A stretch of DNA of 38,964 nucleotides, taken from NCBI GenBank assembly GCA_945860425.1, contig CAMAQU010000002.1:1-38964 (forward strand). The letters run 5' to 3'. Within the stretch, counting starts at the first letter, position 1; each line of letters starts with the position of its first letter. This document shows, piece by piece, positions 17,299 to 38,964 of this stretch. The translations under genes and the position numbers were made by a program. Source of the stretch: Sphingomonas paucimobilis (GTDB taxonomy: Bacteria > Pseudomonadota > Alphaproteobacteria > Sphingomonadales > Sphingomonadaceae). The notes below the pieces were generated by a model that worked only from the letters and a program-made list of their open reading frames with translations, did not search any database and had not been told where the DNA came from.

Positions 17299-17385
17299 TT
17301 TCTACTCTCCATCATTAACTTAGAGGGTGCACCATGCGGAAGAAGATGCGCACAGATTTGCTCTAAACCTGCATGTCAGATCCGG

Positions 17386-18078: not shown

Positions 18079-19690
18079 ATCTCAATTTTCCAGAGTCGAC
18101 GTCCTCTCTTAATTTACGTTTGTCTATTTTCCCAACGCTGGTCTTAGGCAGATTAGGAATAGATGCCCAATATTCGGGGACCATGAATTTGGCCATTTTA
18201 TCTAAGAGAAAACGTCGAACCTCCTCATGGTCAACCTGGTGACCCTCCAACGCCGTCAGAATGACCAAAGGCCTCTCCTCCCAACGTGGATCGGGCACCG
18301 CAATCACGGCGACCTCATTCACGCCCGGATAGCGGCTCACAGCATTTTCCAAATCGACGGACGAAATCCATTCTCCCCCCGATTTGATGAGATCCTTTGT
18401 GCGATCTGTAACCTGCACATACCCGCGGCTGTCGATTGTGCCGGCGTCCCCTGTTCGCAGCCAGCCGTCCTTTGTGAGCGGGCGATCGGCCTCAGCCTGA
18501 AGATAATAGCCCTGCGTGACCCAAGGGCCGCGCAATTGCAGATGGCCAATGGCCTGACCATCTTCTGGCAGCGGCTGGTCAAGATCGTCGACGATGCGCA
18601 CTTCCATTCCTGCAACAGGTCGACCACTTTTTGCCCGCCACTGAACCTCATCATCCGATGGCACATCAACGGGGGGGAAGGAAAGGACGCACATCGGGCT
18701 TGTCTCAGTCATGCCCCATCCTTGAACTAGGCCGACGCCCCAAGCAGCGCGCACCCGCTCGATCAACGTAGGCGACACGGCAGACCCGCCAGAAATCAGC
18801 ACTCGGAAGCACGATAGGTCGAGCGGCTCTTGGTTGTGCATCAACAGCAAGTCGTTCAGGATTGTTGGGACGGCCGCGGCAAAGGTCGGACGCGTCAGGG
18901 TGATCAATTGCGCCAACTTATCTGGCTGAAGATGCGGCCCAGGCAACACGAAATTGCTACCTGCGAGCCAACCGGAAAAGGGCGCGCCCCAGGCATTGGC
19001 GTGGAACATCGGCGGGACCATTAAGAGTGTGTCCCGGTTACTGATCGCAAAAGCGTCCGCTCCAAGCGAGGCTAGGCTGTGCAGAAAAATGGATCGATGG
19101 CTGTAGACGACCCCCTTTGGATTGCCAGTCGTCCCAGAGGTATAGCACATGACGGCCGCGCTGTTTTCATCGAGGTCGGGCCAGTCGTCAAAGGGCGACA
19201 CCCCGTCGATCAAATCCTCATAGCCAATGAGCTTGCCCGAAAAACCAGGGAGAGCAGCAGGTGCATCGCCCAGGACAACAATCATGTCGACCGATGGTAG
19301 ATCGCCAATTACCGAAGCCACCAAAGGCACAAATGACGCATCAAGGATGAGCACCCGATCCTCGGCATGACCGATGATATAGGCAATCTGTTCCGCGGCG
19401 AGCCGGACATTTACCGTGTGGAGCACGCCAGCCATTGCCGGGATCGCCAGATAGGCTTCCAAATGCTCTTGGGTGTTCCAGCATAGCGTCCCGACCCGAT
19501 CCCCCATGGCAAGACCGTGCGCCCGAAGCGCTCTAGCCAGCTGACGCGCGCGATGAGCAACATCGGCATAGCTGGCGGACCGCAACTGAGAGCCGTCAAA
19601 GCTCATCACTTGGCTGTTTTCAAAAAGGCGGGCGCCGCGTCGCAAGATCATCTGCGTCGACAGCGGAAACTGCATCATCGTGGCGTCCAT
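18050..19690 (-). CDS. Long-chain/medium-chain acyl-CoA ligase (AMP-binding)
   Basis: MCYTSGTTGNPKGVVYSHRS, QGWGMTETSPMC, WLRTGDAGTIDSRGYVQVTDRTKDLIKSGGEWISS, PKTSVGKIDKRKLRE. Confidence 0.93.
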   Translation of the reverse strand: MDATMMQFPLSTQMILRRGARLFENSQVMSFDGSQLRSASYADVAHRARQLARALRAHGLAMGDRVGTLCWNTQEHLEAYLAIPAMAGVLHTVNVRLAAEQIAYIIGHAEDRVLILDASFVPLVASVIGDLPSVDMIVVLGDAPAALPGFSGKLIGYEDLIDGVSPFDDWPDLDENSAAVMCYTSGTTGNPKGVVYSHRSIFLHSLASLGADAFAISNRDTLLMVPPMFHANAWGAPFSGWLAGSNFVLPGPHLQPDKLAQLITLTRPTFAAAVPTILNDLLLMHNQEPLDLSCFRVLISGGSAVSPTLIERVRAAWGVGLVQGWGMTETSPMCVLSFPPVDVPSDDEVQWRAKSGRPVAGMEVRIVDDLDQPLPEDGQAIGHLQLRGPWVTQGYYLQAEADRPLTKDGWLRTGDAGTIDSRGYVQVTDRTKDLIKSGGEWISSVDLENAVSRYPGVNEVAVIAVPDPRWEERPLVILTALEGHQVDHEEVRRFLLDKMAKFMVPEYWASIPNLPKTSVGKIDKRKLREDVDSGKLRFVRVAEPSR

Positions 19691-20730
19691 TAAATGGCCC
19701 CCCGGTCTATATGTTTTGCGGCTTCCTGGAGCAGGTTCGGCACATCATGCTCCAGATTTCGAGCATAATCGCGGTCGTCCAATCCGCGGCGGTGGGCAAC
19801 AAAGGCACCTTCAACGATCGCCGCCAACCGCCAAGCAGCAAAAACGGTGTAATATCCCAAATGGCGCTGATCAAAGCCCGTCAACTCCGCCCAAAGATCG
19901 GCCAGGGCAGCAGCCGGAATAATATCAGGCCGATTGGTCAGGGCCTGAACATGTGCGAAGCCCAAAGCATGCTCGGGGTTACGCTGCCAAAAGAACAGGC
20001 AAAGCCCCAAATCGATCAGGGGGTCCCCCAATGTCGCCATCTCCCAATCAAGGATACCCAAGAGGCGCGGCTGACCTTTATCGACAAGGCAATTGTCGAG
20101 GTGAAAATCACAATGAATCAAACTTGCGTGCTGACAGTCCGGACGGTTTGCCAACAGCCAGTCGGCAATCTCCTGAAGGAGGGGCAAGGGGCGAACTTGA
20201 TCCGTTGCACGCTGGTCCAGCCAACGCTCAACTTGGCGCGCCACAAACAAATCAGGCTGACCAAATCGATCCGGCAGACGCGACGCACAATCCGCGCGAT
20301 GGACCGCTGCAAGCCCTTGGATCATTGCTCGGCCCAGAGCAGAAACATGGTCGGCCGCTGAGGCGGTGGAATCGTAGCTGGCCGGCAAGTGGGTCGTCAA
20401 AGAAACGCCATCCAGCCATTCAATGACGGAAAAAGATTGCCCGATCACGCTCGGGTCATCGCACCATGCGACCGGACGCGGCACAGGAGCCTGACCCTGT
20501 AACGCCACAAGCGCCTTGTGCTCGCGCGCGATCCCAGCGGCAGCCTTATCGGAAATCGCAATGACAGGTGGGTGACGCAAAACGAAACGCCCGGAGTCAC
20601 TCTCAATCAATTGGGTCACATTCGCGTTGCCGCCCGCCAGCAACGGGCCGGGCCGGGCATTCTCAATGCCCGCTTCTTGTGTCAGCCATTGGCTTAAACG
20701 CGCAAACGCCTCTGAGGCTAGAGGTTGCAC
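19690..20730 (-). CDS. Second phosphotransferase (APH) family protein
   Basis: RFVLRHPP, LIHCDFHLDNCLVD, LLGILDWEMATLGDPLIDLG. GTG start at 20730 overlaps the SDR stop; track ORF extends to 20790. Confidence 0.85.
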   Translation of the reverse strand: MQPLASEAFARLSQWLTQEAGIENARPGPLLAGGNANVTQLIESDSGRFVLRHPPVIAISDKAAAGIAREHKALVALQGQAPVPRPVAWCDDPSVIGQSFSVIEWLDGVSLTTHLPASYDSTASAADHVSALGRAMIQGLAAVHRADCASRLPDRFGQPDLFVARQVERWLDQRATDQVRPLPLLQEIADWLLANRPDCQHASLIHCDFHLDNCLVDKGQPRLLGILDWEMATLGDPLIDLGLCLFFWQRNPEHALGFAHVQALTNRPDIIPAAALADLWAELTGFDQRHLGYYTVFAAWRLAAIVEGAFVAHRRGLDDRDYARNLEHDVPNLLQEAAKHIDRGAI

Positions 20731-21452
20731 ATTAATCCTCCGTCGGTCACAACGGTCGAGCCCGTCATATATCCCGAACCTGCGACCCACCAGACGACAT
20801 CGGCAATTTCTTCAGCGGTTCCCATCCGGCCAAGCGGCACTTTATCAACGATCTTCTGTCGTGCCTTTTCCGACACGCCTGCCGTCATATCGGTCATAAC
20901 AAAGCCCGGAACCACCAGGTTGACCCGAATATTTTGCCGCGCAAGCTCGCATGCCAAGACTTGGGTGAGCCCAGAAAGGCCTGCCTTGGATGCTCCATAG
21001 CAGCTGTCGCCAGAAAATCCGCGAAAGCCGACAACAGCGCCTATGTTAATAATGGCTCCACCAGCTGCGAGATGCGGGAGAACGGTCCGAATGGCCCGCA
21101 TCGGACCCGACAAATTCGTCGCGAGCGAATCGTCCCAATCGGCATCGCTAATCGAAAGCAACTTGCCCCCGCGGTGAAGGCCTGCATTGTTAACGAGGAT
21201 GTCGACGCCACCCCATTCGTCAACCATCGCAGCGACGGCGGACCCAAGGTCTTGGGCGGAGCTTACATCGCCGCGCACAGCAATCGCGTTTTGGCCGAGG
21301 GATTTGGCCAGATGAGTGACATCATCCCCTCTAGCCATGAGGCAAACCTTGTCGCCTCGCGCGATCGCTAGGGAAGCGATCGCGTGGCCTAAGCCACGCG
21401 ACGCCCCTGTCACAAGCCAGCGACGCTGGCTCGAGTTGGTGTGATTAGACAT
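20718..21452 (-). CDS. SDR family oxidoreductase (FabG-like)
   Basis: VTGASRGLGHAIA, LVNNAG, CYGASKAGLSGL (YxxxK), TGSTVVTDGGLMCNL. Confidence 0.92.
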   Translation of the reverse strand: MSNHTNSSQRRWLVTGASRGLGHAIASLAIARGDKVCLMARGDDVTHLAKSLGQNAIAVRGDVSSAQDLGSAVAAMVDEWGGVDILVNNAGLHRGGKLLSISDADWDDSLATNLSGPMRAIRTVLPHLAAGGAIINIGAVVGFRGFSGDSCYGASKAGLSGLTQVLACELARQNIRVNLVVPGFVMTDMTAGVSEKARQKIVDKVPLGRMGTAEEIADVVWWVAGSGYMTGSTVVTDGGLMCNL

Positions 21453-24375: not shown

Positions 24376-25683
24376 ATGGCATGGGATTTTTCGACAGAGC
24401 CTGAATTTCAAGAACAGCTCGACTGGATGAAGGAATTTGTAGCGGCCGAGATTGAGCCGATGGACCTTGTGTTCCGCCATCCGGCAGCACCTTTTGATCC
24501 GTCGTCTCCCGCCCAGCGCGCAATGGCGCCGCTAAAGGAGATTGTGAAGAAGAAGGGCCTTTGGGCATGCCATCTTGGTCCGGAACTGGGCGGACAGGGC
24601 TTTGGCCAGGTTAAGCTGGGCCTGATGAACGAAATCCTCGGACGCAGCCGCTTTGCACCCACCGTGTTCGGCACTCAAGCGCCCGACACCGGCAATGCTG
24701 AAATCCTCGCCCGCTTTGGCACGGAAGAGCAAAAGCAGCTCTATCTGCAGCCGTTGCTCGATGGTGAGATTTTCTCCTGCTATTCGATGACAGAACCGCA
24801 AGCCGGGGCAGACCCCGGCCAGTTTACCTGCCAGGCAGACCTGATCGGCAATGAATGGGTCATCAATGGCGAAAAATGGTTCGCAAGCCATGCATGCGTT
24901 GCCGAATTTTTGATCGTGATGTGCATCACCGATCCGGAAGTTCCGGTTCATGAAGGCTCAACCATGCTCATCGTCCCCAAGGACACGCCAGGCATGGAGA
25001 TTATCCGCAATACTGCTGTCGGCCCCAAAGATGCGCTGGGCAGCGGCGTTCATGGCTATTTGCGATTTACCGATTGCCGGGTACCGCGCGTCAACGCGCT
25101 CGGCCCCGTCGGCGAAGGCTTTAAGGTCGCCCAGTCCCGCCTCGGTGGTGGCCGCATTCACCATGCCATGCGAACCGTCGGGATGCTGAACAAGGCAATG
25201 GAGATGATGTGTGAGCGCGTTGTCTCGCGCACCACCAAGGGCGAACGCCTTGCCGACAAGCAAATGGTGCAGGAAAAAATTGCCGACAGCCACACTCAGA
25301 TCACCCAGTTCCGACTGCACGTGCTCTACACCGCTTGGCTGCTCGATCGAGATAAGGCCTATACCCGACCGGTTCGACGCGAGATTTCCGCGATCAAAGC
25401 TGCCATGCCAGATGTGCTGAAGGATGTGATCTATCGGGCACTCCATCTCCACGGCTCGCTTGGCATGTCGAACGAAACCCCGTTGATGGATATGTGGCAA
25501 TATGTGCCCGAAATGGGGATCGTCGACGGCCCGACCGAGGTCCATAAGGTCTCGGTTGCCAAGGATGTGTTGCGCCATGTTGCACCTTCGCCGGGCGTCT
25601 TCCCTACTTATTTCACGCCAGACCGGCGCGCCGCCGCCGCAATAAAATTCGCCGCATTTTTGGGTGAGGAGAAGGCGGCATGA
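24376..25683 (+). CDS. Acyl-CoA dehydrogenase family protein
   Basis: YSMTEPQAGADPGQFTCQAD, NGEKWFASHA, AQSRLGGGRIHHAMRTVG, LHGSLGMSNETPL, DGPTEVHKVSVAKDVLR. Confidence 0.93.
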   Translation: MAWDFSTEPEFQEQLDWMKEFVAAEIEPMDLVFRHPAAPFDPSSPAQRAMAPLKEIVKKKGLWACHLGPELGGQGFGQVKLGLMNEILGRSRFAPTVFGTQAPDTGNAEILARFGTEEQKQLYLQPLLDGEIFSCYSMTEPQAGADPGQFTCQADLIGNEWVINGEKWFASHACVAEFLIVMCITDPEVPVHEGSTMLIVPKDTPGMEIIRNTAVGPKDALGSGVHGYLRFTDCRVPRVNALGPVGEGFKVAQSRLGGGRIHHAMRTVGMLNKAMEMMCERVVSRTTKGERLADKQMVQEKIADSHTQITQFRLHVLYTAWLLDRDKAYTRPVRREISAIKAAMPDVLKDVIYRALHLHGSLGMSNETPLMDMWQYVPEMGIVDGPTEVHKVSVAKDVLRHVAPSPGVFPTYFTPDRRAAAAIKFAAFLGEEKAA

Positions 25684-26141
25684 CACAGGCGCTCGAAGCT
25701 CGAATCGATCAGCTCGAAAGTCGTTTCCAATTTCGCGACCTTGTGAGCGACTATTGCCACGGATTTGACAAGCGAGACCTTGATCAGTTCATGGCAATCT
25801 GGTGGCCGGACGCCATCTGGGACATTGGCCCGCCTTTTGGCGATTTTATTGGCGCCAAAGAAATCGCGAGGGCTGTCACCGATATCCTCTGGCCTGCCTG
25901 GCTCCAGTCAAGCCATTACACCACAAATCTGCGGGTAACCTTCGATGGCGCAGATCTCGCAACGGGGGTCTGCGACGTCGATTGTATCGGCACGATGAGC
26001 GATCAACAGGCCCAGACCGTGGCGGCCACTTATAATGATCGCTTTGAACGCCGAGATGGCATTTGGAAGATCGTGCACCGGAAAGTGACGATGCACCATT
26101 TCAGTCCCCTTGTCGGCATCACTCTCTCGGCACCGAAATAG
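25680..26141 (+). CDS. NTF2-like/SnoaL-like protein resembling gamma-HCH dehydrochlorinase LinA; putative dehydratase or lyase
   Basis: GFDKRDLDQFMAIWWPDAIWDI, ILWPAWLQSSHYTTNLRVTF, CDVDCIG, FERRDGIWKIVHRKVTMHHFSPLVGI align by eye to LinA (D25, H73, R129 equivalents D30, H79, R134). ATGA overlap with ACAD. Confidence 0.8.
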   Translation: MTQALEARIDQLESRFQFRDLVSDYCHGFDKRDLDQFMAIWWPDAIWDIGPPFGDFIGAKEIARAVTDILWPAWLQSSHYTTNLRVTFDGADLATGVCDVDCIGTMSDQQAQTVAATYNDRFERRDGIWKIVHRKVTMHHFSPLVGITLSAPK

Positions 26142-26157
26142 GATCTTAGGAGGTTTT

Positions 26158-26961
26158 ATGGCTTACCATCAGCTGACAGACGGCCGGCGGATTTATTTTG
26201 AACATTATGCCGGACCAAAAACGCCATTTGTCCTGAGCCATGGCTGGGGCATGTCGAGCCGCGTTTGGGTGGATGTGATCGAACAGTTGCTGCGCGCGGG
26301 CCATGAAGTCCTTGCGGTTGATCATCGCGCTTGCGGCCAATCGGACCGCGATTTTGATGACATGAGCATTGGCGCCCTTGCAGGAGATATTGTCGATATC
26401 GCCCGAGCACGAAAGCTGCGACCTGCCATCGTCAACGGATGGTCACTGGGCGGGGCGGTTGCTGTGGAAGCCGCGCATCGACTTGGTAAGGATGCGGCAG
26501 GCCTTATCCTGACATGCGCGGCGTCGCCGCGCTATGTGCAAGCAGCAGATTTTCCCTATGGCGGCGTGCGCGAGGATGTGCTCGGCATGCAAGACGCCAT
26601 TCTTGCGGACCGGGCCGGTTTCTTCAAAGGCCTTTCAGCCGGCGTATGCGCGAAAGATGTTGGTCAGCCGGCCATTGACTGGATGTGGTCAATATTCATG
26701 GATGCAGGGCCCCAAGCGATAAAGGCAATGCTCGCCTTGGCGGATCTGGATCAACGCTCGATCTTAGCCGGTCTTGATATTCCGGTGCTATCTATCATCG
26801 GCAGTGAAGACGGTGTGGTGCCGCCCCAAATTGGAGAGCAGGCAGCCGCATGCGCGCAACACGGAAAACTTGCCCGTTTCGAAGGATGTGGCCATGCCCC
26901 CTTTATCGAGGATGGGCCCGGCTACATTAAAACGCTGCTTGAATTTGCCCAAGACGTTTAG
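26158..26961 (+). CDS. Alpha/beta hydrolase (serine nucleophile)
   Basis: SHGWGMSSRVW, NGWSLGGAVAVE (GxSxG), GCGHAPFIEDGP; AGGAGG before ATG 26158. Track ORF starts at 26110. Confidence 0.9.
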   Translation: MAYHQLTDGRRIYFEHYAGPKTPFVLSHGWGMSSRVWVDVIEQLLRAGHEVLAVDHRACGQSDRDFDDMSIGALAGDIVDIARARKLRPAIVNGWSLGGAVAVEAAHRLGKDAAGLILTCAASPRYVQAADFPYGGVREDVLGMQDAILADRAGFFKGLSAGVCAKDVGQPAIDWMWSIFMDAGPQAIKAMLALADLDQRSILAGLDIPVLSIIGSEDGVVPPQIGEQAAACAQHGKLARFEGCGHAPFIEDGPGYIKTLLEFAQDV

Positions 26962-28161: not shown

Positions 28162-29796
28162 ATGAGCAAGAACGGCAAGAAGGTCGATTTTGACGTAATT
28201 GGGATCGGCGCAGGGTTCGCAGGACTGGCTTTGATCCATTATCTGCGCAATGCGGGCCTATCGGTTCGGATTTTTGACCGCGCGTCTGATGTCGGCGGCA
28301 CTTGGGCATGGAACCGCTATCCCGGCGCGGCAACGGACAGCGAAAGCTATTATTACTGCCTCACCTTTTCCAAGGAGCTGCTGCAGGAATGGTCCTGGAC
28401 CAAGCGCTATCCCGGCCGCCAGGAAACGCAAGATTACATGCGCTTCGTTGCCGACAAGTGCGATATGTGGCCTTACATCCAGCTGAACACGGAAATTGTC
28501 GACGCCGAATATCAGGTTGATGACGGAATTTGGCGGGTGACCACAGGCTCGGGCGACCGCTTTACCTGCAAGTATTTCGTGAGCGGCATGGGGATGATTT
28601 CTGAACCCATGATCCCGAACATCAAGGGGATGGACCAGTTTAAAGGTCCGCTTTTCCATTCTTCACGTTGGCCCAAAGAAGGTCTGGAATATGCCGGAAA
28701 GCGGGTTGGCATCATCGGCGCTGGCGCAACGACAGTTCAGATGGTTCCCGAAGTTGCGAAGACCGCGGCCAGCGTAACGGTTTTCCAGCGAACGCCGAAT
28801 TATATTCTGCCGGCCATGCAAAAGCAGATGACGCCGGAATGGGAAAAAGAGATTAAGGATAATTACGACGCAATCGTCGCAAAATGCCGAAACCATGTGT
28901 TCGGCATGGCCTTTGACAGTCCGGTTGGCCGCAATGCGCTAGACACGCCCCCCGAAGAGCGTCAGCGCATCTTTGAAGAGAATTGGACGGGCAGCTTCCG
29001 CTGGGTATTCGAAACCTTCGACGATCTGCTCGCCGCTCCTGAAGCCAATCGCATGGCTTCTGAGTTCATCATCGCCAAGATGAAGGAACGGGTGAAAGAC
29101 CCAAAAATTGCTGACCTTCTGGCGCCAAGCTTTGAAAATTATCCGCTTTTTGCAAAGCGTCCGCCGCTTGATCATGGCTATCTGGAAGCCTTCAACGAAG
29201 ACCATGTCCATTTGGTGGATATCAAGGATGCCGAACCGCTTGTCGAAGTTACGGAAACAGGCGTACGCACGACGCGCAACCATTATGAGTTTGACATCAT
29301 CGTGCTCGCCACGGGGTTCAGCGCCTATACAGGCGCGCTAGAAGCCTTCCCGATCAAGGGCGTGAGCGGCCAAACGCTCAGCGAGAAGTGGCGCAAGTCT
29401 TCGGATTGCATCATGGGCGTTTGCGTGTCGGATTTCCCGAATATGTTTGTCGTCACAGGCCCACAGGCTCCGTTCGCCAACCTGCCCACCTCAATCGAGC
29501 AGAATGTCATCTGGATCACCCACTGCATCGAGAAGATGGAGCGTGAAGGTTATGACATCTTCAAGCCTCGCCGCGAAGCCGAAGAGGCCTGGACCGCGCA
29601 TACCGCCGAAATCCATGCCCAGACACTCATGGCCGAGGGCCATAAGGTCAATTCCTGGATGATGGGGGCCAACCGGCAGGATAAGCCACCGCGCGTTCTC
29701 ATCTATTTTGGCGGCGCGAATAACTATTATGATACGCTTGATAAATCAGCCGAAGAAGGCTTCCCAGAGCTGGAATTTGAAAAGCTAGGGGCCTGA
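28162..29796 (+). CDS. Flavin-containing Baeyer-Villiger monooxygenase
   Basis: IGIGAGFAGLALIHYLR, GGTWAWNRYPGAATDSES, BVMO fingerprint FKGPLFHSSRWP (FxGxxxHxxxW), IIGAGATTVQMVPEVA, IVLATGFSAYTG. Confidence 0.93.
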   Translation: MSKNGKKVDFDVIGIGAGFAGLALIHYLRNAGLSVRIFDRASDVGGTWAWNRYPGAATDSESYYYCLTFSKELLQEWSWTKRYPGRQETQDYMRFVADKCDMWPYIQLNTEIVDAEYQVDDGIWRVTTGSGDRFTCKYFVSGMGMISEPMIPNIKGMDQFKGPLFHSSRWPKEGLEYAGKRVGIIGAGATTVQMVPEVAKTAASVTVFQRTPNYILPAMQKQMTPEWEKEIKDNYDAIVAKCRNHVFGMAFDSPVGRNALDTPPEERQRIFEENWTGSFRWVFETFDDLLAAPEANRMASEFIIAKMKERVKDPKIADLLAPSFENYPLFAKRPPLDHGYLEAFNEDHVHLVDIKDAEPLVEVTETGVRTTRNHYEFDIIVLATGFSAYTGALEAFPIKGVSGQTLSEKWRKSSDCIMGVCVSDFPNMFVVTGPQAPFANLPTSIEQNVIWITHCIEKMEREGYDIFKPRREAEEAWTAHTAEIHAQTLMAEGHKVNSWMMGANRQDKPPRVLIYFGGANNYYDTLDKSAEEGFPELEFEKLGA

Positions 29797-29865: not shown

Positions 29866-30696
29866 ATGCGTCTGGAAAATAAAGTGGCGGTCATCACTGG
29901 CGGCGCAATGGGCATTGGCGCGGCAACGGTCAGTCGATTTATTGCTGAAGGCTGCAAGGTCGTGATCGGCGATATCCAACGCGGCCCAGGCGAATCCTTT
30001 GCCGCGCAATTTGGCGATCAGGCAGCCTTTGCCCTTTGCGACGTGACGCGAGAAGACGATGTAGCAGCACTTGTCGATTTGGCGGTCAGCCGATTTGGTC
30101 AGCTGGATATCATGTTCAACAATGCAGGCATTGTCGGCGCGGTAGGACCAATCGATACGACCCCGGCTGATGAATGGAACAAGTCACTTGCCGTCCTTAT
30201 CAATGGTGTGTTCTTTGGCATGAAGCACGCGACCCGCGTGATGAAGCCCGCGCAGCGTGGCAGTATCATCAGCATGGCCAGCACCGCAGGCTTGATGGGC
30301 GGCCTTGGGCCCCACGCCTATGCAGCAGGTAAGCACGCGGTTGTCGGGATGACCAAGAATGTCGCAGCCGAGGTCTGCCATTTTGGCATTCGCGTCAATG
30401 CGATTGCCGCAGCAAGCATGGCGACCCCTATGGTGGCGAATGTCCTGACCGGAGATGGCGGCAATATTGAGGAAGCCAAGCGCATCCTTGCCGAAGTCTC
30501 TCCCTTGCGCGGGCGGCCCGGTCTTGCCGAAGATGTGGCTAATGCGGCGCTTTGGCTGGGAAGCGATGAATCAGGCTATACAACGGGCCATACGCTGACG
30601 ACTGACGCGGGAGCCACCATTGGTGCCACAGCAGCAAAGCCGAATTTCAGCGAGTATCAGCCGATGATTGGTGAGGTGTCCGTAAAGGGACGGTGA
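29866..30696 (+). CDS. SDR family oxidoreductase
   Basis: ITGGAMGIGAATV, MFNNAGIVG, AYAAGKHAVVG (YxxxK), TGHTLTTDAGATIG. Confidence 0.92.
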   Translation: MRLENKVAVITGGAMGIGAATVSRFIAEGCKVVIGDIQRGPGESFAAQFGDQAAFALCDVTREDDVAALVDLAVSRFGQLDIMFNNAGIVGAVGPIDTTPADEWNKSLAVLINGVFFGMKHATRVMKPAQRGSIISMASTAGLMGGLGPHAYAAGKHAVVGMTKNVAAEVCHFGIRVNAIAAASMATPMVANVLTGDGGNIEEAKRILAEVSPLRGRPGLAEDVANAALWLGSDESGYTTGHTLTTDAGATIGATAAKPNFSEYQPMIGEVSVKGR

Positions 30697-30986
30697 GTTG
30701 GCGCCCGCGCTTGAACGGGCGGCTATTTGCTTGATCAATACTTCAAGGGGTCTCCGTCTGGGCCGCCATGTCCATGGTGGACCTGACATGGCTCATCCAG
30801 CCCGGAACGGGTTAACGCAGGGTGCTTTGACAAGCGGTTTTGGGTCCTAAAATAGCGGCATCTGGGGACCGTTAACCCCATGAATTTGGCCGCTCAAGGG
30901 CCGCTATCTGGTCTGGATTTAATCATGAATCTCAGATAGGAAGGCTTAGTGCTGCCTGTCTGAGAAGTTTTGAAAAGCAATCGCAA
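30697..30986. promoter_or_regulatory. 290-nt intergenic region with several inverted repeats
   Basis: Arms: CGCCCG/CGGGCG (30702/30716), GCCATGTC/GACATGGC (30765/30785), GGGTTAACG/CGTTAACCC (30809/30870), ATAGCGGC/GCCGCTAT (30852/30900), CTATCTG/CAGATAG (30904/30933). Confidence 0.5.
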
Positions 30987-31502
30987 ATGACCAAAGATCA
31001 AAATCAGTTGAACACGTCTGGTGCAGACAAAAAACATTCGGCAAGCACAACTGAACTTTTGTCTGAAGAATTGCTTTCCCATATTGGCCGATCGTCAGCG
31101 CCCCGGACGGAAATTGTCTCGCGCCGTGAAATCCGGAAATATGCAATTGCGACAGGCTGGAAGAAGAAAGAATATTTAGATGGCGATGTCGCGCCGCCAT
31201 TATTCCATCTCCCGCTGTTCTGGGACATTGTAGAGCTTGACCAGTTGAGCCCCGACGGCGTTTCAATTGATCGCCTGCTGCCCAAATTCCCGCTCGAAAA
31301 GGCGATGGCAGGCGGCCTAGACATCGAATATTTCCGACCGATCCGCGCAGGCGACGTTTTGGTGGCCACCCGCACCCTGACCAATATTTACGAAAAATCT
31401 GGCTCGCAGGGGCCGATCATTTTCTATGAAGTTGTAATGCGCGTGGAAACGGAAGCGGGCGACCTTGTCCTCACTGAAAAAACAACACGGCTCTTGCGAT
31501 AA
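30987..31502 (+). CDS. MaoC-like/FAS1 dehydratase N-terminal-type hot-dog subunit
   Basis: SRREIRKYAIATGW, PPLFHLPLFWD, GGLDIEYFRPIRAGDVLVATRTLTNIYEKSGSQGPIIFYEV. Confidence 0.82.
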   Translation: MTKDQNQLNTSGADKKHSASTTELLSEELLSHIGRSSAPRTEIVSRREIRKYAIATGWKKKEYLDGDVAPPLFHLPLFWDIVELDQLSPDGVSIDRLLPKFPLEKAMAGGLDIEYFRPIRAGDVLVATRTLTNIYEKSGSQGPIIFYEVVMRVETEAGDLVLTEKTTRLLR

Positions 31503-31924
31503 TGACTATGTCGAAACTAACGAACCTGAAACCGGGCGACACCTTGCCGGGCCGGGATTATTGCCCGGATAACGTCCAGAATTTCATGTATAGTGCCGCG
31601 CTATGGAATGCCCATCGCATCCATTTCGACATGCCCTATGCGGCAGACGTGGAAGGCTATCCGGGCATTGTGATGTCGGGGCCGATGCTTGGCGACTGGC
31701 TGACGCAATGCGTGATCGAATGGCTGGATGATGCGGGCCGGATGACGCACCTTGTCTATTCGAACCGCAAAGCCGCCTTTATCGGCGAGACGGTCACCTC
31801 AGGCGGCCGTGTGATCTCGGTCGATAAGGACAAGGGCACTGCTGACCTTGAAATCTTCATCAAGAATGAGGCGGGCGAGGTGATCGCCCCAGGCACCGCC
31901 ACCGTTACCTTTGACAAGGCCTGA
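31502..31924 (+). CDS. MaoC-like (HTD2-type) dehydratase catalytic subunit
   Basis: ALWNAHRIHFDMPYAADVEGYPGIVMSGPMLGDWL; TAATG overlap with the preceding ORF. Confidence 0.87.
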   Translation: MTMSKLTNLKPGDTLPGRDYCPDNVQNFMYSAALWNAHRIHFDMPYAADVEGYPGIVMSGPMLGDWLTQCVIEWLDDAGRMTHLVYSNRKAAFIGETVTSGGRVISVDKDKGTADLEIFIKNEAGEVIAPGTATVTFDKA

Positions 31925-33106
31925 TTGGAATTGATCTTGGACAGCTTGCGCGGGAAAGTCGCCATTGTTGGGGCCGCGGATACCCCGGTGGGAAAGCTAC
32001 CCCAGTTCAGCCCGACGGGCTTGTGCATTGATGCCGCACGCCGTGCCATGTCAGATGCGCAAATCACCAAGGACCAGATTGACGGGCTGATCACCTGCAA
32101 TTCCATGGCCGAGCCCTATATGTATCACGCCGAGGCGATGGCGGAATATCTCCAGATCTTCCCGCGCTATTGCATGAGCGTGAATGCAGGCGGCAGCACC
32201 ACATTTTCCATCCTGCATCATGCAGCCGCTGCGATTGCGAGCGGCATGTGCACGACCGTTCTGATTACAATGGCAGACAGTTTACGCACGGGCCTAACGC
32301 GCGATCAGGCGATGAAAATGCAGTCGTCGGCCGGCCATTCGCAGTTCGAAATTCCCTTTGGCCCGACAGTCCCAGCCTTTTATGCGCTCATCGCCCGTGC
32401 CCATATGGAAAAATATGGCACGACCGCTGAACAGTTCGCCGCCATTGCCGTCGCCTGTCGCAAACATGCCTGCCTCAACCCGACGGCGGAAATGCGCACC
32501 CCGATCACGATCGACGATGTGATTAATTCCCGGATGATCGCGGACCCCTTGCACCTGCTCGATTGCTCGCTGGTCTCGGATGGGGGCTCTGCGATCATCC
32601 TGACCTCGGCAGAAAGAGCCGCGGATTTTCCGCACGCCCCTGTATATCTTCTGGGCGTCGGCGAAGGCCATGGCCATGAACATATCAGCCAGGCCCAAAG
32701 CCTAACCACGTCCTTCGCAGTGGAATCGGGCCGCCGGGCCTATGCCATGGCTGGGCTTGGACCAAGCGACATGGACTTGGCTCAACTCTATGATTGCTTC
32801 ACGCCAACAGTGCTGGTGGAACTTGAAGACCTTGGCTTTTGCGAAAAGGGCGAAGGTGGTGCGTTTGTGGAGAATGGCAATATCGAGTTGGGCGGCATCC
32901 TGCCGGTCAACACCCATGGCGGGCTTTTGTCCCATTGCCATCCGGGCAATCCGGGGTCGATGTTTGCGCTCACCGAAACCGTGACCCAGCTTCGTGGGGC
33001 TGCCGGTGCGCGTCAGGTGGAGGGCGCTGAAGTCGCGCTGGTGCATGGCCAAGGTGGCATCATGTCAAGCCATACCACCGTGATCCTCGGCAGGGAGCGC
33101 AACTGA
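31925..33106 (+). CDS. Thiolase-fold lipid-transfer protein (Ltp2/SCP2-like), candidate aldolase subunit; TTG start
   Basis: VNAGGSTTFSILHHAAAAIASG, AQLYDCFTPTVLVELEDLGFCEKGEGGAFVENG, GILPVNTHGGLLSHCHPGNPGSM. Confidence 0.88.
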   Translation: MELILDSLRGKVAIVGAADTPVGKLPQFSPTGLCIDAARRAMSDAQITKDQIDGLITCNSMAEPYMYHAEAMAEYLQIFPRYCMSVNAGGSTTFSILHHAAAAIASGMCTTVLITMADSLRTGLTRDQAMKMQSSAGHSQFEIPFGPTVPAFYALIARAHMEKYGTTAEQFAAIAVACRKHACLNPTAEMRTPITIDDVINSRMIADPLHLLDCSLVSDGGSAIILTSAERAADFPHAPVYLLGVGEGHGHEHISQAQSLTTSFAVESGRRAYAMAGLGPSDMDLAQLYDCFTPTVLVELEDLGFCEKGEGGAFVENGNIELGGILPVNTHGGLLSHCHPGNPGSMFALTETVTQLRGAAGARQVEGAEVALVHGQGGIMSSHTTVILGRERN

Positions 33107-33522
33107 TGGACGTCCACGCAGACAAATTCCTGCCTCGGCCAACCCCGGAATCGGCTCCCTTCTGGCAGGGCTGCAAGGAGCACAAGCTCCTGCTCCAGCA
33201 CTGCTCGGGCTGCGGCACATATCAATTTTATCCGCGCCTACTCTGCGCGACCTGCATGTCCGAAGACCTTGAATGGCGCGAAGCCAGCGGGCGCGGCAAA
33301 GTGGAAACCTATACAATTGTCACCCGTGCCGTCTCAGACGCCTATGCCGCCGATGCCCCCTATGTCATCGCCCTCATCACCCTTGAGGAAGGGCCGCGCA
33401 TGATGAGCAACGTGGTTGGCTGCGACGCCCAGAGCGTCACCTGCGGCATGGCCGTTGAAGTGGTGTTTGAAGCTTGGTCGGCCGAAATCACCATGCCGAA
33501 ATTCCGGTCGGTCGCGGGCTAA
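33106..33522 (+). CDS. Zn-ribbon/OB-fold (DUF35) protein
   Basis: LLQHCSGCGTYQFYPRLLCATCMSEDLEWREASGRGKVETYTIV; TGATG overlap with thiolase. Confidence 0.92.
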   Translation: MDVHADKFLPRPTPESAPFWQGCKEHKLLLQHCSGCGTYQFYPRLLCATCMSEDLEWREASGRGKVETYTIVTRAVSDAYAADAPYVIALITLEEGPRMMSNVVGCDAQSVTCGMAVEVVFEAWSAEITMPKFRSVAG

Positions 33523-33535
33523 GCGAAACGCGCGA

Positions 33536-34165
33536 TCAGATTTTGTCTGCAAGGTGGTCGGCATCGGCAAACGCCTGCGCCATGGCCGCCGCCACAACAT
33601 CCTCTGGCCCGAAGGTGCCCGCGACGCGCACGGCGTCAATCTGCGTCACGCCGATAAAGCCCAGCCAGGCCTTCAGATAGGCAAGCTGAAAATCCAGCCC
33701 GTCAATGTCGGGCAGGCTGCCAAAAGGCATGGCGCTGGCGGCGATGATGATCGCCCGGCGGCCCTGCGCCAGGCCTTCCACATTGCCTTGGGCATCATTG
33801 CGGAACGTCAAGCCCGGATGCGTCAAGACATCGATATAGTGTTTCAGCCGATAGGGGATGCCGAAATTCCACATGGGCGTTGCAATCAAATAGCCGTCAA
33901 ATGACAGGAAATGATCGGTCCATCTCTTCAGCTCTTGCCAGGTGGCTGCCTGCGACGGATCAACTGCGTTGCCCGCCAGCAGATGATAGCGGCCTTCAAC
34001 GGCTTCATGACCAAAAGCGGGAAGATCTGCCGCGAACACATCCAGCTGTTCCACCTCTAATGTCGGATAGCGCTGCATCAGGCGCACCAGCAGGCGATCG
34101 GCGGCCATAGCAGAACGCGACCGCTCCTGCCGTGGGCTGGCGGTGATGTGAAGCAGCCGCTTCAC
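33536..34165 (-). CDS. azoR: FMN-dependent NADH-azoreductase family flavoprotein
   Basis: LLHITASPRQERSRSAMAADRL, GYLIATPMWNFGIPYRLKHYIDVLTHPGLTF; GTG start overlapping the Rieske ORF stop. Confidence 0.88.
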   Translation of the reverse strand: MKRLLHITASPRQERSRSAMAADRLLVRLMQRYPTLEVEQLDVFAADLPAFGHEAVEGRYHLLAGNAVDPSQAATWQELKRWTDHFLSFDGYLIATPMWNFGIPYRLKHYIDVLTHPGLTFRNDAQGNVEGLAQGRRAIIIAASAMPFGSLPDIDGLDFQLAYLKAWLGFIGVTQIDAVRVAGTFGPEDVVAAAMAQAFADADHLADKI

Positions 34166-34473
34166 GCGACGTCCATGTCGATATGGATGACACCGTCGAG
34201 GACTTCAGTTTGCCAGACATTGATTGGTGATTTCGTCAATGTCCCCATCGCAGAACCATCCCGCATGTCGAAACGGACACCGTGCGCCGGACAGAAGATA
34301 TGGAACCCTTTGAGCTTTCCACCTTCAAGCGCCTGCAAGGCATGGCTGCACCTGTTTTCAATGGCGAATACGCCGGCCGGGGTGCGAGCGACAAGCACGG
34401 ACTTGCCATTCAGATCAAAAGTGGAGGTGCCATTTTCAGGAATATCGGCAAGCGGCGCGACAGCAATTTTCAC
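34162..34473 (-). CDS. Rieske [2Fe-2S] ferredoxin
   Basis: ENRCSHALQALEGGKLKGFHIFCPAHGVRFDMRDG; GTG start at 34473 with AAGGA upstream. Track ORF extends to 34575. Confidence 0.87.
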   Translation of the reverse strand: MKIAVAPLADIPENGTSTFDLNGKSVLVARTPAGVFAIENRCSHALQALEGGKLKGFHIFCPAHGVRFDMRDGSAMGTLTKSPINVWQTEVLDGVIHIDMDVA

Positions 34474-34653
34474 AGTTTCAGCGTCCTTGAGTGATGCAGC
34501 GGCGCTGGGTTGGAAAACCACGAAAATCCTTGCGGCAAACCCATCTCCGTTGCCCCGAAAACATGCCCGAAGCACCTTGAAAATGCAAACATGATTGTTG
34601 ATGAGGCAGAGCGCTCTATACGGGTGCCACCCCTTTCAAAAAGGCCATGGGCT

Positions 34654-35868
34654 ATGGACGCAAACACCACGCAACGGATAAAGGACAGCATGGCATTCGA
34701 AGCTGCGCGCACCAAGCCCCCGACCGGTTTCCCGCGACTGCCAGACATCCCTGCCGCCCGCTATGTCGATCCGCAGTTTCTAGAGCTGGAAAAACAAGGG
34801 GTGTGGAAGCGCAGCTGGCTTTATGCTGGCCACGCCAGCCAAGCCGCCGAACCAGGCAGCTGGTTCCTGATGCGCAATAGCGGCACACCCATTCTGGTCG
34901 TGCGTGATCTGCAAGGCGAGTTTCGCGCCTATTACAACACCTGCCGCCATCGCGGCGGACCACTTGTCACGCAAGACGCCGGGCAGGGTCGGGGCTTTGT
35001 CTGCAGCTATCATGGCTGGAGCTATGCGCTTGATGGCCAGTTGAAATCCGTGCGCGATAAGCGCGATTTCGTTGATCTCGACTTTGCTTGTCGGTCGCTC
35101 TTGCCCGTGCGCTGTGAAACGCTTGGCAGCTGGATTTTCATCAATGAGGACGCTGAGGCACCGACGCTGATCGAAAGCCTTGGGTCTGTGGCAGACGAGC
35201 TTCGGCAATTTGACCTCGACAATCTGATGCTCGTGCATTCGGCCAGCTATGACGTCCCCTGTAACGTCAAAGTGCTGCTGGATGTATTCTTGGAAGTCTA
35301 TCATCTGAAATCGATCCACGAAGAGACGGCGGACCGGTTCCTCGACCATCGCGGAATGACAGCCACCCTATGGCCAAATGGCCATTCACGGATGATCACG
35401 CCCAATCGCCGACCCGATTGGGTCGATCCCGGCACGCGGGGGATGCCGGAAATGTCGGGCGTGACCGAAATTCCGCGCCTCAACAACGTGAGCTACCATC
35501 TCTTTCCCAATATCGTGATGCCGCCAACGGCAACCGGCATTCCCATGCTTGTGTTCTGGCCGCAAACGGCCAGTTCGATGCGGATCGAATGCCATTGGTT
35601 CGGACCTACACTACCCGTCAAAGATCTAAGCCCGCTATGGGAAACCCGCATCAAGAATTTTGAGCGGATCCTGTTTGAAGATTTAAGATATGCAGGGAAG
35701 ATACAGGAGTCGGTTGAAGGTCCCGGCTTTACCGGCATGGCCCTCAATTATCAGGAGCGGCGCATCTATCATTGGCACGAGGAAGCTGATCGCCGGATTG
35801 GGCCTGACCGCGTGCCAGTCGACCTGCGCGTTGACCCGGTTCTGGTCGACTGGATCGAAAGGTCCTGA
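34654..35868 (+). CDS. Rieske non-haem iron aromatic ring-hydroxylating oxygenase alpha subunit
   Basis: CRHRGGPLVTQDAGQGRGFVCSYHGWSYALDGQL; LEVYHLKSIHEE mononuclear iron site. Start at MDANTTQR; ORF open from 34510. Confidence 0.92.
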   Translation: MDANTTQRIKDSMAFEAARTKPPTGFPRLPDIPAARYVDPQFLELEKQGVWKRSWLYAGHASQAAEPGSWFLMRNSGTPILVVRDLQGEFRAYYNTCRHRGGPLVTQDAGQGRGFVCSYHGWSYALDGQLKSVRDKRDFVDLDFACRSLLPVRCETLGSWIFINEDAEAPTLIESLGSVADELRQFDLDNLMLVHSASYDVPCNVKVLLDVFLEVYHLKSIHEETADRFLDHRGMTATLWPNGHSRMITPNRRPDWVDPGTRGMPEMSGVTEIPRLNNVSYHLFPNIVMPPTATGIPMLVFWPQTASSMRIECHWFGPTLPVKDLSPLWETRIKNFERILFEDLRYAGKIQESVEGPGFTGMALNYQERRIYHWHEEADRRIGPDRVPVDLRVDPVLVDWIERS

Positions 35869-35872
35869 CTTA

Positions 35873-35903
35873 AAGCTCTCCCCCTCCTCGAGGGGAAGAG
35901 CTT
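35873..35903. terminator. Hairpin between convergent genes, likely bidirectional terminator
   Basis: AAGCTCT-c-CCCC-tcctcga-GGGG-a-AGAGCTT followed by cattttc. Confidence 0.6.
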
Positions 35904-37798
35904 CATTTTCCGTTGGGTGTGAAGACCATCAACAGGTTACCGGGCATATGGTTATAAAGACCATAGCCCGAGTTTACGACAACATGGCCATTGGCCACGG
36001 CAGCGCCCGGGCCACTCATGCCCCCGCCTCTCGCTGTTACGCCTGAGACGGTCTTGACCGGCAGCGTTGTGTCCACCGTCCAGATGGGCTTGCCAGTGCG
36101 CACATCATAGGCCCTGAACCGTCCATCAAGATGGCCTGCAAAAGCAAATTCGGACACGGCCGTCACCGCCGAGGAAATGCCGGGATCACAATTGGCCTTT
36201 TTGCCGCAAACATTATCGGCCTTTGATTTCCAGAAGACCCGGCCGTTTGCGGCATCGATGGCGTGCAGCCCTGCCCCGCGCAGCTTAGCATCATACACAC
36301 GACCGTCGCGCGTATCTTCCATGTCATTGATCGGAACATAAACAAGGCGACCTTGAGCTGCCATCCCGAAATGGACGCCGCCTTGTGTACCCCCATGCCC
36401 AAGGGTCGTTTTCCAGACAGGCTTCCCAGTGTCCGGATCAAGCCCGAAAACATCGGCCGATTTCTGTCCTGCAACAATCATCTTCTTGCCGCCCCCAAGC
36501 GGTACAACAAGCACAGAAGCCGCCACGTCAAAATCAGGTCCATTTTCCTTGGGGCAATTATCATTGCCGATCATGCAACCGACATTCCAAGCGTCCCCTT
36601 TGGTCAGCTGGGAGACCCAAATCCGCTTGCCCGTCTTTGCATTTACGGCAAACACGGCGTCGCTATTCCCATCTGCTGGGGAAGAGTAATTCTCTCCCGA
36701 TCCAAAATAGACCCTGTTTGTTGCCGCATCAAAAGTGGGGCTGTTCCAAATGGGGGCGCCCGATGGCCCGATGATGTTGGTTCCAGCTTTCGTCTTGCCC
36801 TGCTGAACCCCAGGAGCGGTGACACTATAATGCCGCCAGTTTAAGGAACCTGACTTGGCGTCAAGTGCGACAACAGATCCCCTAAACGTACAACATGCAT
36901 AGTTTGGATCCGCAGCGGCTGTAACCTCCAGCGAGGACACAGGCACAAAGAGCTGCCCCCCGCCAATCGTTGGCGAGCCTGTGATTGTCGCATTGGAATG
37001 ATCATCAACTTTCGATTTCCAAACGAGCTTCCCCGTCATGGCGTCAAGCGCATACATGCGGGCCAGCACATCCCCGAAATAAAGCCGCTCTGTCGCAGGG
37101 TCTGCGACAACAGCGGTGCGCACTTCGGCGGAGGCCCGGAAAGACCAACGCATGCAGCCTGTTTCGAGATCGAGCGCATAAACTGTGCCGTCTTGGCTTC
37201 CGACAAACACCGCACCCCAGCCGATGGAAGGCTGAGACCGAGCTCTTTGCGCTTTCGGATAGGCGAACGCCCATTTGAGCTTGAGCTGCGGGACCTGTTC
37301 CTTCGTCAGACCTGCTTGTTGGGTCGATACATATCGATTGTTGTTATGTCCCCAACCCGTCCGGGACGGAGGTGATCCTTTGTCAAATCGCGCATGCTGA
37401 GCATCGCATGAAGCAGGCGGCGGAGGCGCCTTATAATCTGCCAGTGATGTACGGGTCAGATATTCTGCGATCTGCTGGCGTTGCAGTAACGAAAGTTTGG
37501 CGGCCTGCTGGCTCATTATCCCGCCATTCATGGCGGCGAGAAGAGCGTCCGGGGCCATCATTTCAAGCCAGACCTGCTGGGGCGCCTTTGGCACACCACC
37601 ATTATGGCAGCTCGCACAATTTTCTAGAAACAAGCCCTTCCCGGGATGTTTCTCTACATCAATGGTCGGGCCATCTCGCGATTGCATTTCGTCGGTCGAA
37701 GTCATTCGTTCGCCGCCGACCTTGTCAGCCGATTTTTGGCCGCACCCTGAAAAGGCAAGCGACGCAGCTAAAACTAGTCCGATCCAACTGCGTCGCAT
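35903..37798 (-). CDS. PQQ-dependent quinohaemoprotein dehydrogenase with N-terminal cytochrome c (polyvinyl-alcohol-dehydrogenase-like), lipoprotein signal
   Basis: LAFSGCG lipobox, ENCASCHNGGVPKAPQQVW, propeller blades (ALDLETGCMRWSF, ALDAMTGKLVWKS), NYACCTFRGSVVALDAKSG with vicinal Cys. Confidence 0.88.
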   Translation of the reverse strand: MRRSWIGLVLAASLAFSGCGQKSADKVGGERMTSTDEMQSRDGPTIDVEKHPGKGLFLENCASCHNGGVPKAPQQVWLEMMAPDALLAAMNGGIMSQQAAKLSLLQRQQIAEYLTRTSLADYKAPPPPASCDAQHARFDKGSPPSRTGWGHNNNRYVSTQQAGLTKEQVPQLKLKWAFAYPKAQRARSQPSIGWGAVFVGSQDGTVYALDLETGCMRWSFRASAEVRTAVVADPATERLYFGDVLARMYALDAMTGKLVWKSKVDDHSNATITGSPTIGGGQLFVPVSSLEVTAAADPNYACCTFRGSVVALDAKSGSLNWRHYSVTAPGVQQGKTKAGTNIIGPSGAPIWNSPTFDAATNRVYFGSGENYSSPADGNSDAVFAVNAKTGKRIWVSQLTKGDAWNVGCMIGNDNCPKENGPDFDVAASVLVVPLGGGKKMIVAGQKSADVFGLDPDTGKPVWKTTLGHGGTQGGVHFGMAAQGRLVYVPINDMEDTRDGRVYDAKLRGAGLHAIDAANGRVFWKSKADNVCGKKANCDPGISSAVTAVSEFAFAGHLDGRFRAYDVRTGKPIWTVDTTLPVKTVSGVTARGGGMSGPGAAVANGHVVVNSGYGLYNHMPGNLLMVFTPNGK

Positions 37799-37818: not shown

Positions 37819-38964
37819 TTAGAACTTCGCGCCGGCTTCAATGCCGAAATAGCGCGGCGGGCCGTAGAGGGTGAACGTCCACAAACCACCAACGACCTGG
37901 CTCGCTGTTTCATAACGCTCATCAGTCAGGTTCTTGCCAACGAGACGCAGCGTGTACTTATCGTCCAAATCAGCAAGTGTGATCGACGCATTCAGCAGCG
38001 TCCGCGCGCGGAGGAAGGTGTTGTCCCGTGCATCCGCGATTGACTGCGTAAACAGGTTGCGGCCGACATAGCTCACATTCGCATTAATCGACACCTTCAG
38101 CTTGTCACTGACCGGCGTTGAATATGTCCCGTCGACGGACCATTGCCATTTAGGCGCACGGTCCAACGGTGCTGACGACAGATCATAACCTGCCGGAATC
38201 GGCGTTTCATACTTACGGTACTTGGCGTCCTGATAGCCAAGAACACCGCGAAGGGTCAGCCCGTCGGTTGGGATGAGTGTCGCCTCTGCCTCGATGCCCT
38301 TCACCCGGGCACTGGCTGCATTGAAGAAGCGGGTGACCTGATTGGGCTGGCCGTTAACAGTGATGGGCACAACAATCTGCTTTTGCAGATCGCTATAATC
38401 CACCCAGAAACCGGTCAGGTTAAAGCGGGCGCGGTTGTCGAGGAACTGCGTCTTTACGCCAGCCTCATAGCTGTCTGCCTTTTCAGGATTCGTTGCGGCT
38501 GCTGCATTGGCAAATGCCGCCAAGTCAGCACCGAACGGACCGAAGCCACCGATCTGGTCGTTGAACCCGCCGCCCTTGAAGCCGTGCGAATAGGTCGCAT
38601 ACAGGAACGTATCATCGCTGGCCTTATACGCAGCAGAGAACCGGTACGTCGGCTCATTGTCGCTCGCGCGGACAGTGACGACGCCGGCGGTATAGTTGTA
38701 AACGCTGGCATCCAGCGGCCGCGATATAGTGATGCTCGGGTCAAAGCCGCCCCCAAGCTGCGGGATGAAGACCTGCTGGCGACCGCGCCACGTCTTGCGT
38801 TCCCAAGTGTAACGACCGCCTGCCGTCAGGGAGAGCTTGTCATTCACCTTGAAGGTGCCCTCAGCAAACATGGCTGTCGATTTTGCCTTTTGCGCATTGC
38901 ACAACAGGTAAGGCGTATTGTTCCAAGCACCGAACGGCAGCGGGCCGCCGGTAAGATCAAGGAA
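37819..38964 (-). CDS. TonB-dependent receptor, partial (continues beyond the right edge)
   Basis: Beta-barrel repeats, YSHGFKGGGFNDQIGG, KADSYEAGVKTQFLDNRARFNLTGFW; frame open to base 38964 (...LDLTGGPLPFGAWNNTPYLLCNAQ). Confidence 0.9.
   Translation of the reverse strand, partial: FLDLTGGPLPFGAWNNTPYLLCNAQKAKSTAMFAEGTFKVNDKLSLTAGGRYTWERKTWRGRQQVFIPQLGGGFDPSITISRPLDASVYNYTAGVVTVRASDNEPTYRFSAAYKASDDTFLYATYSHGFKGGGFNDQIGGFGPFGADLAAFANAAAATNPEKADSYEAGVKTQFLDNRARFNLTGFWVDYSDLQKQIVVPITVNGQPNQVTRFFNAASARVKGIEAEATLIPTDGLTLRGVLGYQDAKYRKYETPIPAGYDLSSAPLDRAPKWQWSVDGTYSTPVSDKLKVSINANVSYVGRNLFTQSIADARDNTFLRARTLLNASITLADLDDKYTLRLVGKNLTDERYETASQVVGGLWTFTLYGPPRYFGIEAGAKF

Follow-up and report, generated by a model that had tools for sequence, protein, structure and literature searches.

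What reaction is catalyzed by a thiolase-fold protein that lacks the thiolase nucleophile and is encoded between two MaoC-type genes and the gene of a stand-alone DUF35 protein? The question is raised by a four-gene module at positions 30987-33522 of a 38,964-nucleotide stretch of Sphingomonas paucimobilis DNA (assembly GCA_945860425.1, contig CAMAQU010000002.1), referred to here as the window. All four genes lie on the + strand (Table 1). Their open-reading frames (ORFs) overlap or abut, with the junctions TAATG, TGA followed directly by TTG, and TGATG. The tight packing described in a first-pass annotation of this DNA is thus borne out by the coordinates, as are the separate DUF35 gene and the split MaoC parts, which make up four distinct ORFs. 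The arrangement is not due to chance, since the gene order recurs in 21 of the 27 other loci of the clade to which the thiolase-fold protein belongs. A scan of the module for promoters and terminators gave results no better than shuffled sequence, and no paper describing the four-gene module was found in a literature search. The module likely performs hydration of an enoyl-CoA, followed by retro-aldol cleavage of the hydrated product.

The active site of the thiolase-fold protein

The thiolase-fold protein probably starts at the TTG at 31937 and not at 31925, because its orthologues comprise 389 residues and their sequences open with the equivalent of DSLRGK. In pairwise alignments the nucleophilic cysteine of the thiolases 7yvy and 6esq falls on Gly90, while Cys83, seven residues earlier, is out of register with it. 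The protein thus has no cysteine in register with the nucleophile in these thiolase alignments, which agrees with the first-pass statement that the usual nucleophile is missing. The histidine of the HDCF motif is replaced by Tyr289, the tyrosine of the segment YDCFT (residues 289–293) that had already been pointed out, and the cysteine of the CxG motif by His374. The HxGHPxG-type motif, which had been read as SHCHPGNPGS, is indeed there (SHCHPG, residues 336–341), but its GHP histidine is kept as His339, the only one of these features of SCP2-type and classical thiolases that is retained.

The best phmmer matches are 4u4e (327 bits), CtSal (231 bits) and TcLtp2 (220 bits). An AlphaFold2 (AF2) model with a predicted local distance difference test score (pLDDT) of 94.7, built from 55 sequences, gives the same three as its top Foldseek matches, in the order 4u4e, 9myr (CtSal) and 6ok1 (TcLtp2). 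The 4u4e protein is an uncharacterised “thiolase” from Sphaerobacter thermophilus, the best match both in sequence (48%) and in fold; like the family PRK06158, it shows the Tyr/His/His active-site type, with YDSF in place of YDCF. PRK06158 is the nearest NCBIfam model and names the protein an acetyl-CoA acetyltransferase.

CtSal is the bile-acid aldolase of Comamonas testosteroni. It has glycine at the nucleophile position, its Tyr302 and Cys304, from the YDCY motif, were shown by mutagenesis to be catalytic, and Gln352 completes the site (PMC12329534). Tyr302 and Cys304 are in register with Tyr289 and Cys291 of the window protein, and the position of Gln352 is occupied by His339. At this same position TcLtp2 carries a second catalytic tyrosine, Tyr344 (PMC12329534). 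TcLtp2 also has glycine for the nucleophile, and its catalytic YDHF tyrosine corresponds to Tyr289, the third residue of the motif being Cys in the window protein and His in Ltp2. Judged from these alignments, the window protein combines the Tyr/Cys pair of Sal with the GHP histidine of thiolases.

In a tree built from an alignment of 125 related sequences, the window protein falls into a clade of 28 rows with a Shimodaira-Hasegawa approximate likelihood ratio test (SH-aLRT) support of 100. The clade includes Sphingorhabdus, Halieaceae, Porticoccaceae, other Gammaproteobacteria, Gallionella and Binataceae, and one of its sub-branches also holds Bacillus sp. EB600 and Oceanobacillus rekensis. 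Gly90, Tyr289, Cys291, Phe292, His339 and His374 are invariant in all 28 rows, and so is Cys83, which is not kept outside the clade. Ltp2, an Ltp2-like protein from plasmid pIBU218 and IpfD have tyrosine at position 339 and fall into a separate branch of 20 rows (SH-aLRT 98), while CtSal is found outside the clade as a single long-branch row of unsure placement. Tyrosine replaces the HDCF histidine in 122 of the 125 relatives, 121 of which have glycine at the nucleophile position. Among 83 other relatives of the Tyr/His type, a set chosen by Tyr289 and His339 so that these two are fixed by definition, the glycine is present in 82, and position 291 usually holds Ser, Ala or Cys. Because residue 291 varies there while Tyr289 and His339 stay, His339 is a candidate general acid. 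As aligned, the active-site set of the clade is Gly/Tyr/Cys/His/His, whereas Sal has Tyr-Cys-Gln and Ltp2 has Tyr-His-Tyr.

The protein is therefore a thiolase-fold CoA retro-aldolase with DUF35 in the broad, anatomical sense, by its fold, the missing nucleophile, the YDxF tyrosine and the DUF35 partner gene, and it is neither Ltp2 nor Sal as defined. Pfam, PDB sequence matches and the MaoC model support the labels MaoC-N, MaoC-C, Ltp2-like and DUF35 of the first-pass annotation, except that the third protein is not Ltp2 proper.

Partner proteins and a proposed reaction sequence

The first two ORFs encode proteins named here MaoN and MaoC. MaoN matches the N-terminal half of the itaconyl-CoA hydratase 8khg (E 9e-8). 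MaoC has no Pfam match, and its sequence resembles the C-terminal half of 8huc/8khg (E 1.9e-13); its AF2 model (pLDDT 90, from 17 sequences) has the hydratase PhaJ (1iq6) and ChsH1 (4w78_F and 4wnb_B) among its best Foldseek matches. Residues Asn36, His38, His41 and Asp43, within the motif WNAHRIHFD, are invariant in 23 sequences, and Asn36 and His41 correspond to Asn226 and His231 of the mesaconyl-CoA hydratase MeaC (PMC10164722). They presumably form the catalytic dyad, which in hydratases of the ChsH1-ChsH2 kind is Asp/His. By analogy with the MaoC domain of ChsH2, MaoN is a probable non-catalytic, substrate-binding subunit of a heteromeric hydratase. The anatomy of such an enzyme, a catalytic and a partner hot-dog subunit, is found in the module, with MaoN recognised from its sequence alone. 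MeaC, 8huc and 8khg have the same arrangement of N-half and C-half, but there the halves are fused in one protein.

The DUF35 protein contains a zinc ribbon of the C4 type (Cys33, Cys36, Cys47 and Cys50, invariant in 28 sequences) and an OB fold, and matches 9myr_B (E 3e-24) and 6ok1_B (E 6e-18). Its gene is located 18–118 bases downstream of the aldolase gene in all 27 other loci of the clade, and no fused version of the Ltp-like and DUF35 proteins was found across all loci searched. It is presumed from this sequence evidence to be the partner of the putative aldolase.

Two of the closest known systems come from steroid degradation. CtSal-CtShy (9myr, PMC12329534) shares the thiolase fold, the glycine in place of the nucleophile, the YDC Tyr/Cys pair, the DUF35 partner and a preceding MaoC hydratase. 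In CtShy, however, a single chain combines DUF35 with one MaoC domain and the zinc site of DUF35 is C3H1, while the window DUF35 is separate with a C4 site and the hydratase is a two-gene pair; the substrate of the module is probably not a steroid. TcLtp2-ChsH2 with ChsH1-ChsH2 (6ok1, 4wnb) likewise combines a thiolase-fold aldolase, in this case with a C4 DUF35, with a heteromeric MaoC hydratase, but ChsH2 is a fusion of MaoC and DUF35.

In the 21 loci mentioned above, from Sphingomonadales to Halieaceae and Porticoccaceae, the MaoN-MaoC genes directly precede the aldolase gene with their order unchanged, and a further locus has MaoC alone, cut by the contig edge. In a profile search no Ltp-like gene outside the clade had adjoining MaoN-MaoC, although more distantly related MaoC proteins, such as those annotated near loci L121 and L122, would escape it. 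The hydratase pair is thus linked to the 28-member clade. Weak MaoN and MaoC matches lie 2.6–2.9 kb from one thiolase with a Cys nucleophile (locus L115).

Hydration followed by retro-aldol cleavage, already proposed in the first-pass annotation, is the best-supported reading. A retro-aldolase is indicated because the protein carries other residues in place of the thiolase nucleophile, the HDCF His and the CxG Cys and has gained a tyrosine at the aldolase position, because Tyr289 and Cys291 are in register with the catalytic pair of CtSal, because the nearest characterised structures, CtSal and TcLtp2, are two proven steroid retro-aldolases, and because a DUF35 gene always adjoins in the clade. 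The hydratase is indicated because MaoC shares an Asn/His pair with mesaconyl-CoA hydratase and the MaoC model matches ChsH1 and PhaJ.

In the proposed sequence MaoN and MaoC would form a ChsH1-ChsH2-like heteromeric hydratase, in which Asn36 and His41 would add water to an α,β-unsaturated acyl-CoA while MaoN holds its bulky part. Tyr289 would then act as the base that deprotonates the β-hydroxyl of the β-hydroxyacyl-CoA, and the Cα–Cβ bond would break to leave an acyl-CoA enolate. Either Cys291, as in CtSal, or His339, at the site of the second catalytic tyrosine of Ltp2, might reprotonate the enolate, yielding acetyl- or propionyl-CoA together with a ketone or aldehyde. The role of the DUF35 protein would be to shape and stabilise the aldolase.

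The substrate may be a ring- or branch-bearing acid activated by the linked CoA ligase. A ring- or ketone-bearing acid is suggested because a CoA ligase, a Rieske oxygenase and monooxygenases of the Baeyer-Villiger or luciferase type are linked to the module. A CoA ligase gene is immediately upstream in most gammaproteobacterial loci. The Rieske oxygenase gene immediately follows DUF35 in most loci of Halieaceae and Porticoccaceae, is 8–9 kb away in Sphingorhabdus and, in the genome of the window, lies on another contig (C94). A type I Baeyer-Villiger monooxygenase (BVMO) is linked in the window, in two Sphingorhabdus loci (L032 and L033) and in both firmicute loci (L036, Bacillus sp. EB600, and L039, O. 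rekensis), and Haliea and other Gammaproteobacteria have luciferase-type flavin monooxygenases accompanied by an alpha/beta hydrolase. Where linked, these monooxygenases would probably take the ketone further. Both firmicute loci contain CoA ligases, the BVMO, Abhydrolase_3 esterases, zinc alcohol dehydrogenases and an aldehyde dehydrogenase, a set that would suit the conversion of a ketone to an ester or lactone and then to an acid, while the genes do not name the substrate.

Weighing the alternatives

Several points weigh against hydration followed by cleavage. In five members of the clade (Bacillus, Oceanobacillus, Gallionella, Binataceae and Steroidobacteraceae) no MaoN-MaoC adjoins the aldolase gene, so hydration need not be the sole source of the β-hydroxyl. 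It could also come from the conserved Rieske oxygenase, as it does in ibuprofen degradation, where the β-hydroxyl arises from ring dioxygenation (PMC9195938, PMC6063337), and this linked oxygenase is the main uncertainty of the first step. Because the window protein served as the query for the relatives, the sampling is biased to its active-site type, and near position 339 the alignment is gapped between His-type and Tyr-type enzymes.

The ibuprofen pathway supplies the alternative that survives best, in which hydroxylation of the ring carbon beside an arylacetyl- or arylpropionyl-CoA chain by a Rieske oxygenase precedes retro-aldol removal of the chain by the Ltp-like and DUF35 proteins, and MaoN-MaoC acts elsewhere in the pathway. 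That non-steroid pathway, found in Sphingomonas Ibu-2 and R. wittichii MPO218, includes IpfD with the DUF35 protein IpfE, and its cleavage is described as that of a retro-aldolase (PMC9195938). The ipfABDEF genes on pIBU218 share with the module a CoA ligase, a Rieske oxygenase, an Ltp-like protein and a separate DUF35-like gene beside it, and the position of the Rieske gene in Halieaceae and Porticoccaceae, its presence on another contig in the genome of the window and the firmicute loci without a MaoC pair suit such a route. However, IpfD has the Ltp2-type tyrosine (YDAF...Y) and groups with the Tyr344 enzymes apart from the window clade, so that identity with it is rejected; the ibuprofen genes also have no MaoC pair, and IpfE lacks the zinc cysteines of the window DUF35. 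The upstream MaoC pair (21 of 27 loci, plus the one cut by the contig edge) is also linked more tightly than the oxygenase, and beside the linked Rieske protein there is no established beta-subunit gene. Deacylation of this type is therefore considered unlikely.

In pIBU218 (locus L125) IpfE, at 43228-43626, has a single cysteine, so the zinc ribbon is seemingly missing. At 30938-33387 the plasmid also carries an Ltp2-type aldolase (YDHF, Tyr344) with DUF35 and a crotonase-type hydratase, some 10 kb away from the genes of ibuprofen degradation. The thiolase of pUPO218 (H55) was considered and is not IpfD.

The first-pass annotation drew its analogy from steroid side-chain degradation, and the module could be a sphingomonad counterpart of ChsH1-ChsH2-Ltp2 or Shy-Sal that hydrates and cleaves steroid or bile-acid side chains. 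The nearest characterised enzymes are steroid enzymes, and KshA_C-family proteins are encoded both in Haliea and in the genome of the window, where there are three such oxygenases (contigs C109, C64 and C3, the best at 197 bits). Among 13 module-bearing genomes KshA_C is above the cut-off in five, but it was not found in seven, including the isolates Pseudohaliea rubra, Bacillus sp. EB600 and O. rekensis; two of the genomes surveyed, L032 and L033, are small metagenome-assembled genomes. No steroid-ring gene families were recognised within the window, and the tree places the protein apart from the Ltp2 branch and from that of CtSal, the latter being a single long-branch row. The analogy was thus not carried over to the substrate, a steroid pathway tied to the module is rejected on the seven carriers in which KshA_C was not found, the pathway is probably non-steroid, and a steroid role for the module is very unlikely, although conceivable in Haliea and in the genome of the window, which encode KshA_C-family proteins.

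A true thiolase or acyltransferase with another nucleophile, such as Cys83 or Cys291, would agree with the PRK06158 name and with the invariance of both residues in the clade, but it is highly improbable given the glycine at the nucleophile position in every one of the 28 rows of the clade and in 82 of the 83 further relatives of the Tyr/His type, the loss of the HDCF His and CxG Cys, the absence of Cys83 outside the clade and the argument of the CtSal authors that their enzyme, with the same glycine and an equivalent cysteine, cannot thiolyse (PMC12329534). A forward, aldol-condensing synthase of a biosynthetic pathway is conceivable insofar as aldol reactions are reversible, but is scarcely credible among catabolic genes for CoA ligases, an acyl-CoA dehydrogenase, oxygenases, hydrolases and TonB receptors.

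Surroundings, spread and meaning of the module

Table 1. The four-gene module and neighbouring features of the window
Feature	Position	Strand	Basis or remark
MaoN, FAS1_DH/MaoC-N domain protein	30987-31502	+	PF13452 FAS1_DH_region, 58 bits
MaoC, candidate catalytic hydratase subunit	31502-31924	+	C-half of 8huc/8khg
Thiolase-fold retro-aldolase candidate	31925-33106	+	Thiolase_C_1, 212 bits; Thiolase_N, 36 bits
Stand-alone DUF35 protein	33106-33522	+	zf-ChsH2, 49 bits; OB_ChsH2_C, 86 bits
Acyl-CoA dehydrogenase, candidate enoyl-CoA maker (putative role)	24376-25683	+	Pfam
Alpha/beta hydrolase, possible ester or lactone hydrolase	26110-26961	+	homologues linked in 8 other clade loci
Type I BVMO, possible next step on ketone product	28162-29796	+	PDB matches
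Short-chain dehydrogenase/reductase (SDR), directly upstream of module	29866-30696	+	kept beside module in Sphingorhabdus loci (91–92%)
Flavodoxin-fold protein	33536-34165	-	block with Rieske genes
Rieske ferredoxin	34162-34575	-	block with Rieske oxygenase
Rieske oxygenase alpha subunit	34510-35868	+	Pfam

The BVMO matches the cyclohexanone monooxygenase of T. municipale (450 bits) and PAMO (414 bits) in the PDB search. The flavodoxin-fold, ferredoxin and Rieske genes (33536-35868) have an orthologous block in the Sphingorhabdus loci L032–L034. Further away, at 16052-21452, a pair of APH-type kinases is grouped with an acyl-CoA ligase, an SDR and a TetR regulator in a block that resembles hydroxyacyl-CoA kinase systems, and the order APH-ligase-TetR is common to the window and the Haliea and Sphingorhabdus loci. 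Quinoproteins with a pyrroloquinoline quinone (PQQ) beta-propeller, each with a cytochrome c domain, are encoded at 13960-16002 and 35903-37798, the second being kept alongside the module in Halieaceae. A TonB receptor ORF at 37819-38904 (361 residues) is truncated by the contig end at 38964; its orthologue in L132 has 831 residues. In loci without the MaoC pair, Amidohydro_2 proteins (L044, 8695-9837; L036, 18713-19861) adjoin the Ltp-like/DUF35 pair, and such proteins are also annotated near plasmid-borne relatives.

Among 151 genomes of the window's family the MaoC gene is found in one, its own, and the module is therefore accessory and has probably spread horizontally. The aldolase copies of Bacillus sp. 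EB600 and O. rekensis show 73–80% identity, and their G+C content, 0.475 against 0.402 and 0.448 against 0.385 in the surroundings, suggests transfer from a proteobacterium because it is above that of the neighbouring DNA.

By its catalytic residues (Tyr-Cys-His) the clade might be a third class of thiolase-fold aldolases, equipped with a split hydratase of its own and cleaving tertiary β-hydroxyacyl-CoAs to a cyclic or aryl ketone and acetyl-CoA before a Baeyer-Villiger step, but this full reading is quite doubtful. If it holds, the module would be a candidate for activities that are not known to have a gene, such as (1-hydroxycyclohexan-1-yl)acetyl-CoA lyase (EC 4.1.3.35) of cyclohexylacetate degradation; no gene for cyclohexylacetyl-CoA lyase was found in a literature search.

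The use of a thiolase-like and DUF35 pair outside steroid metabolism is already known from ibuprofen degradation by IpfD/E. New here are the variant active site and the split hydratase that goes with it, probably in a role other than steroid metabolism, in a module that is widespread and usually labelled as a thiolase. Many database names call relatives of the Tyr/Gly type thiolases or acetyl-CoA acetyltransferases. If the module does encode a retro-aldolase whose site is Tyr-Cys-His, a large number of pathway annotations would be wrong, the site would be a third solution to the chemistry of Sal and Ltp2, and the module would provide genes with which marine and freshwater bacteria could remove acyl-CoA side chains from compounds other than steroids.

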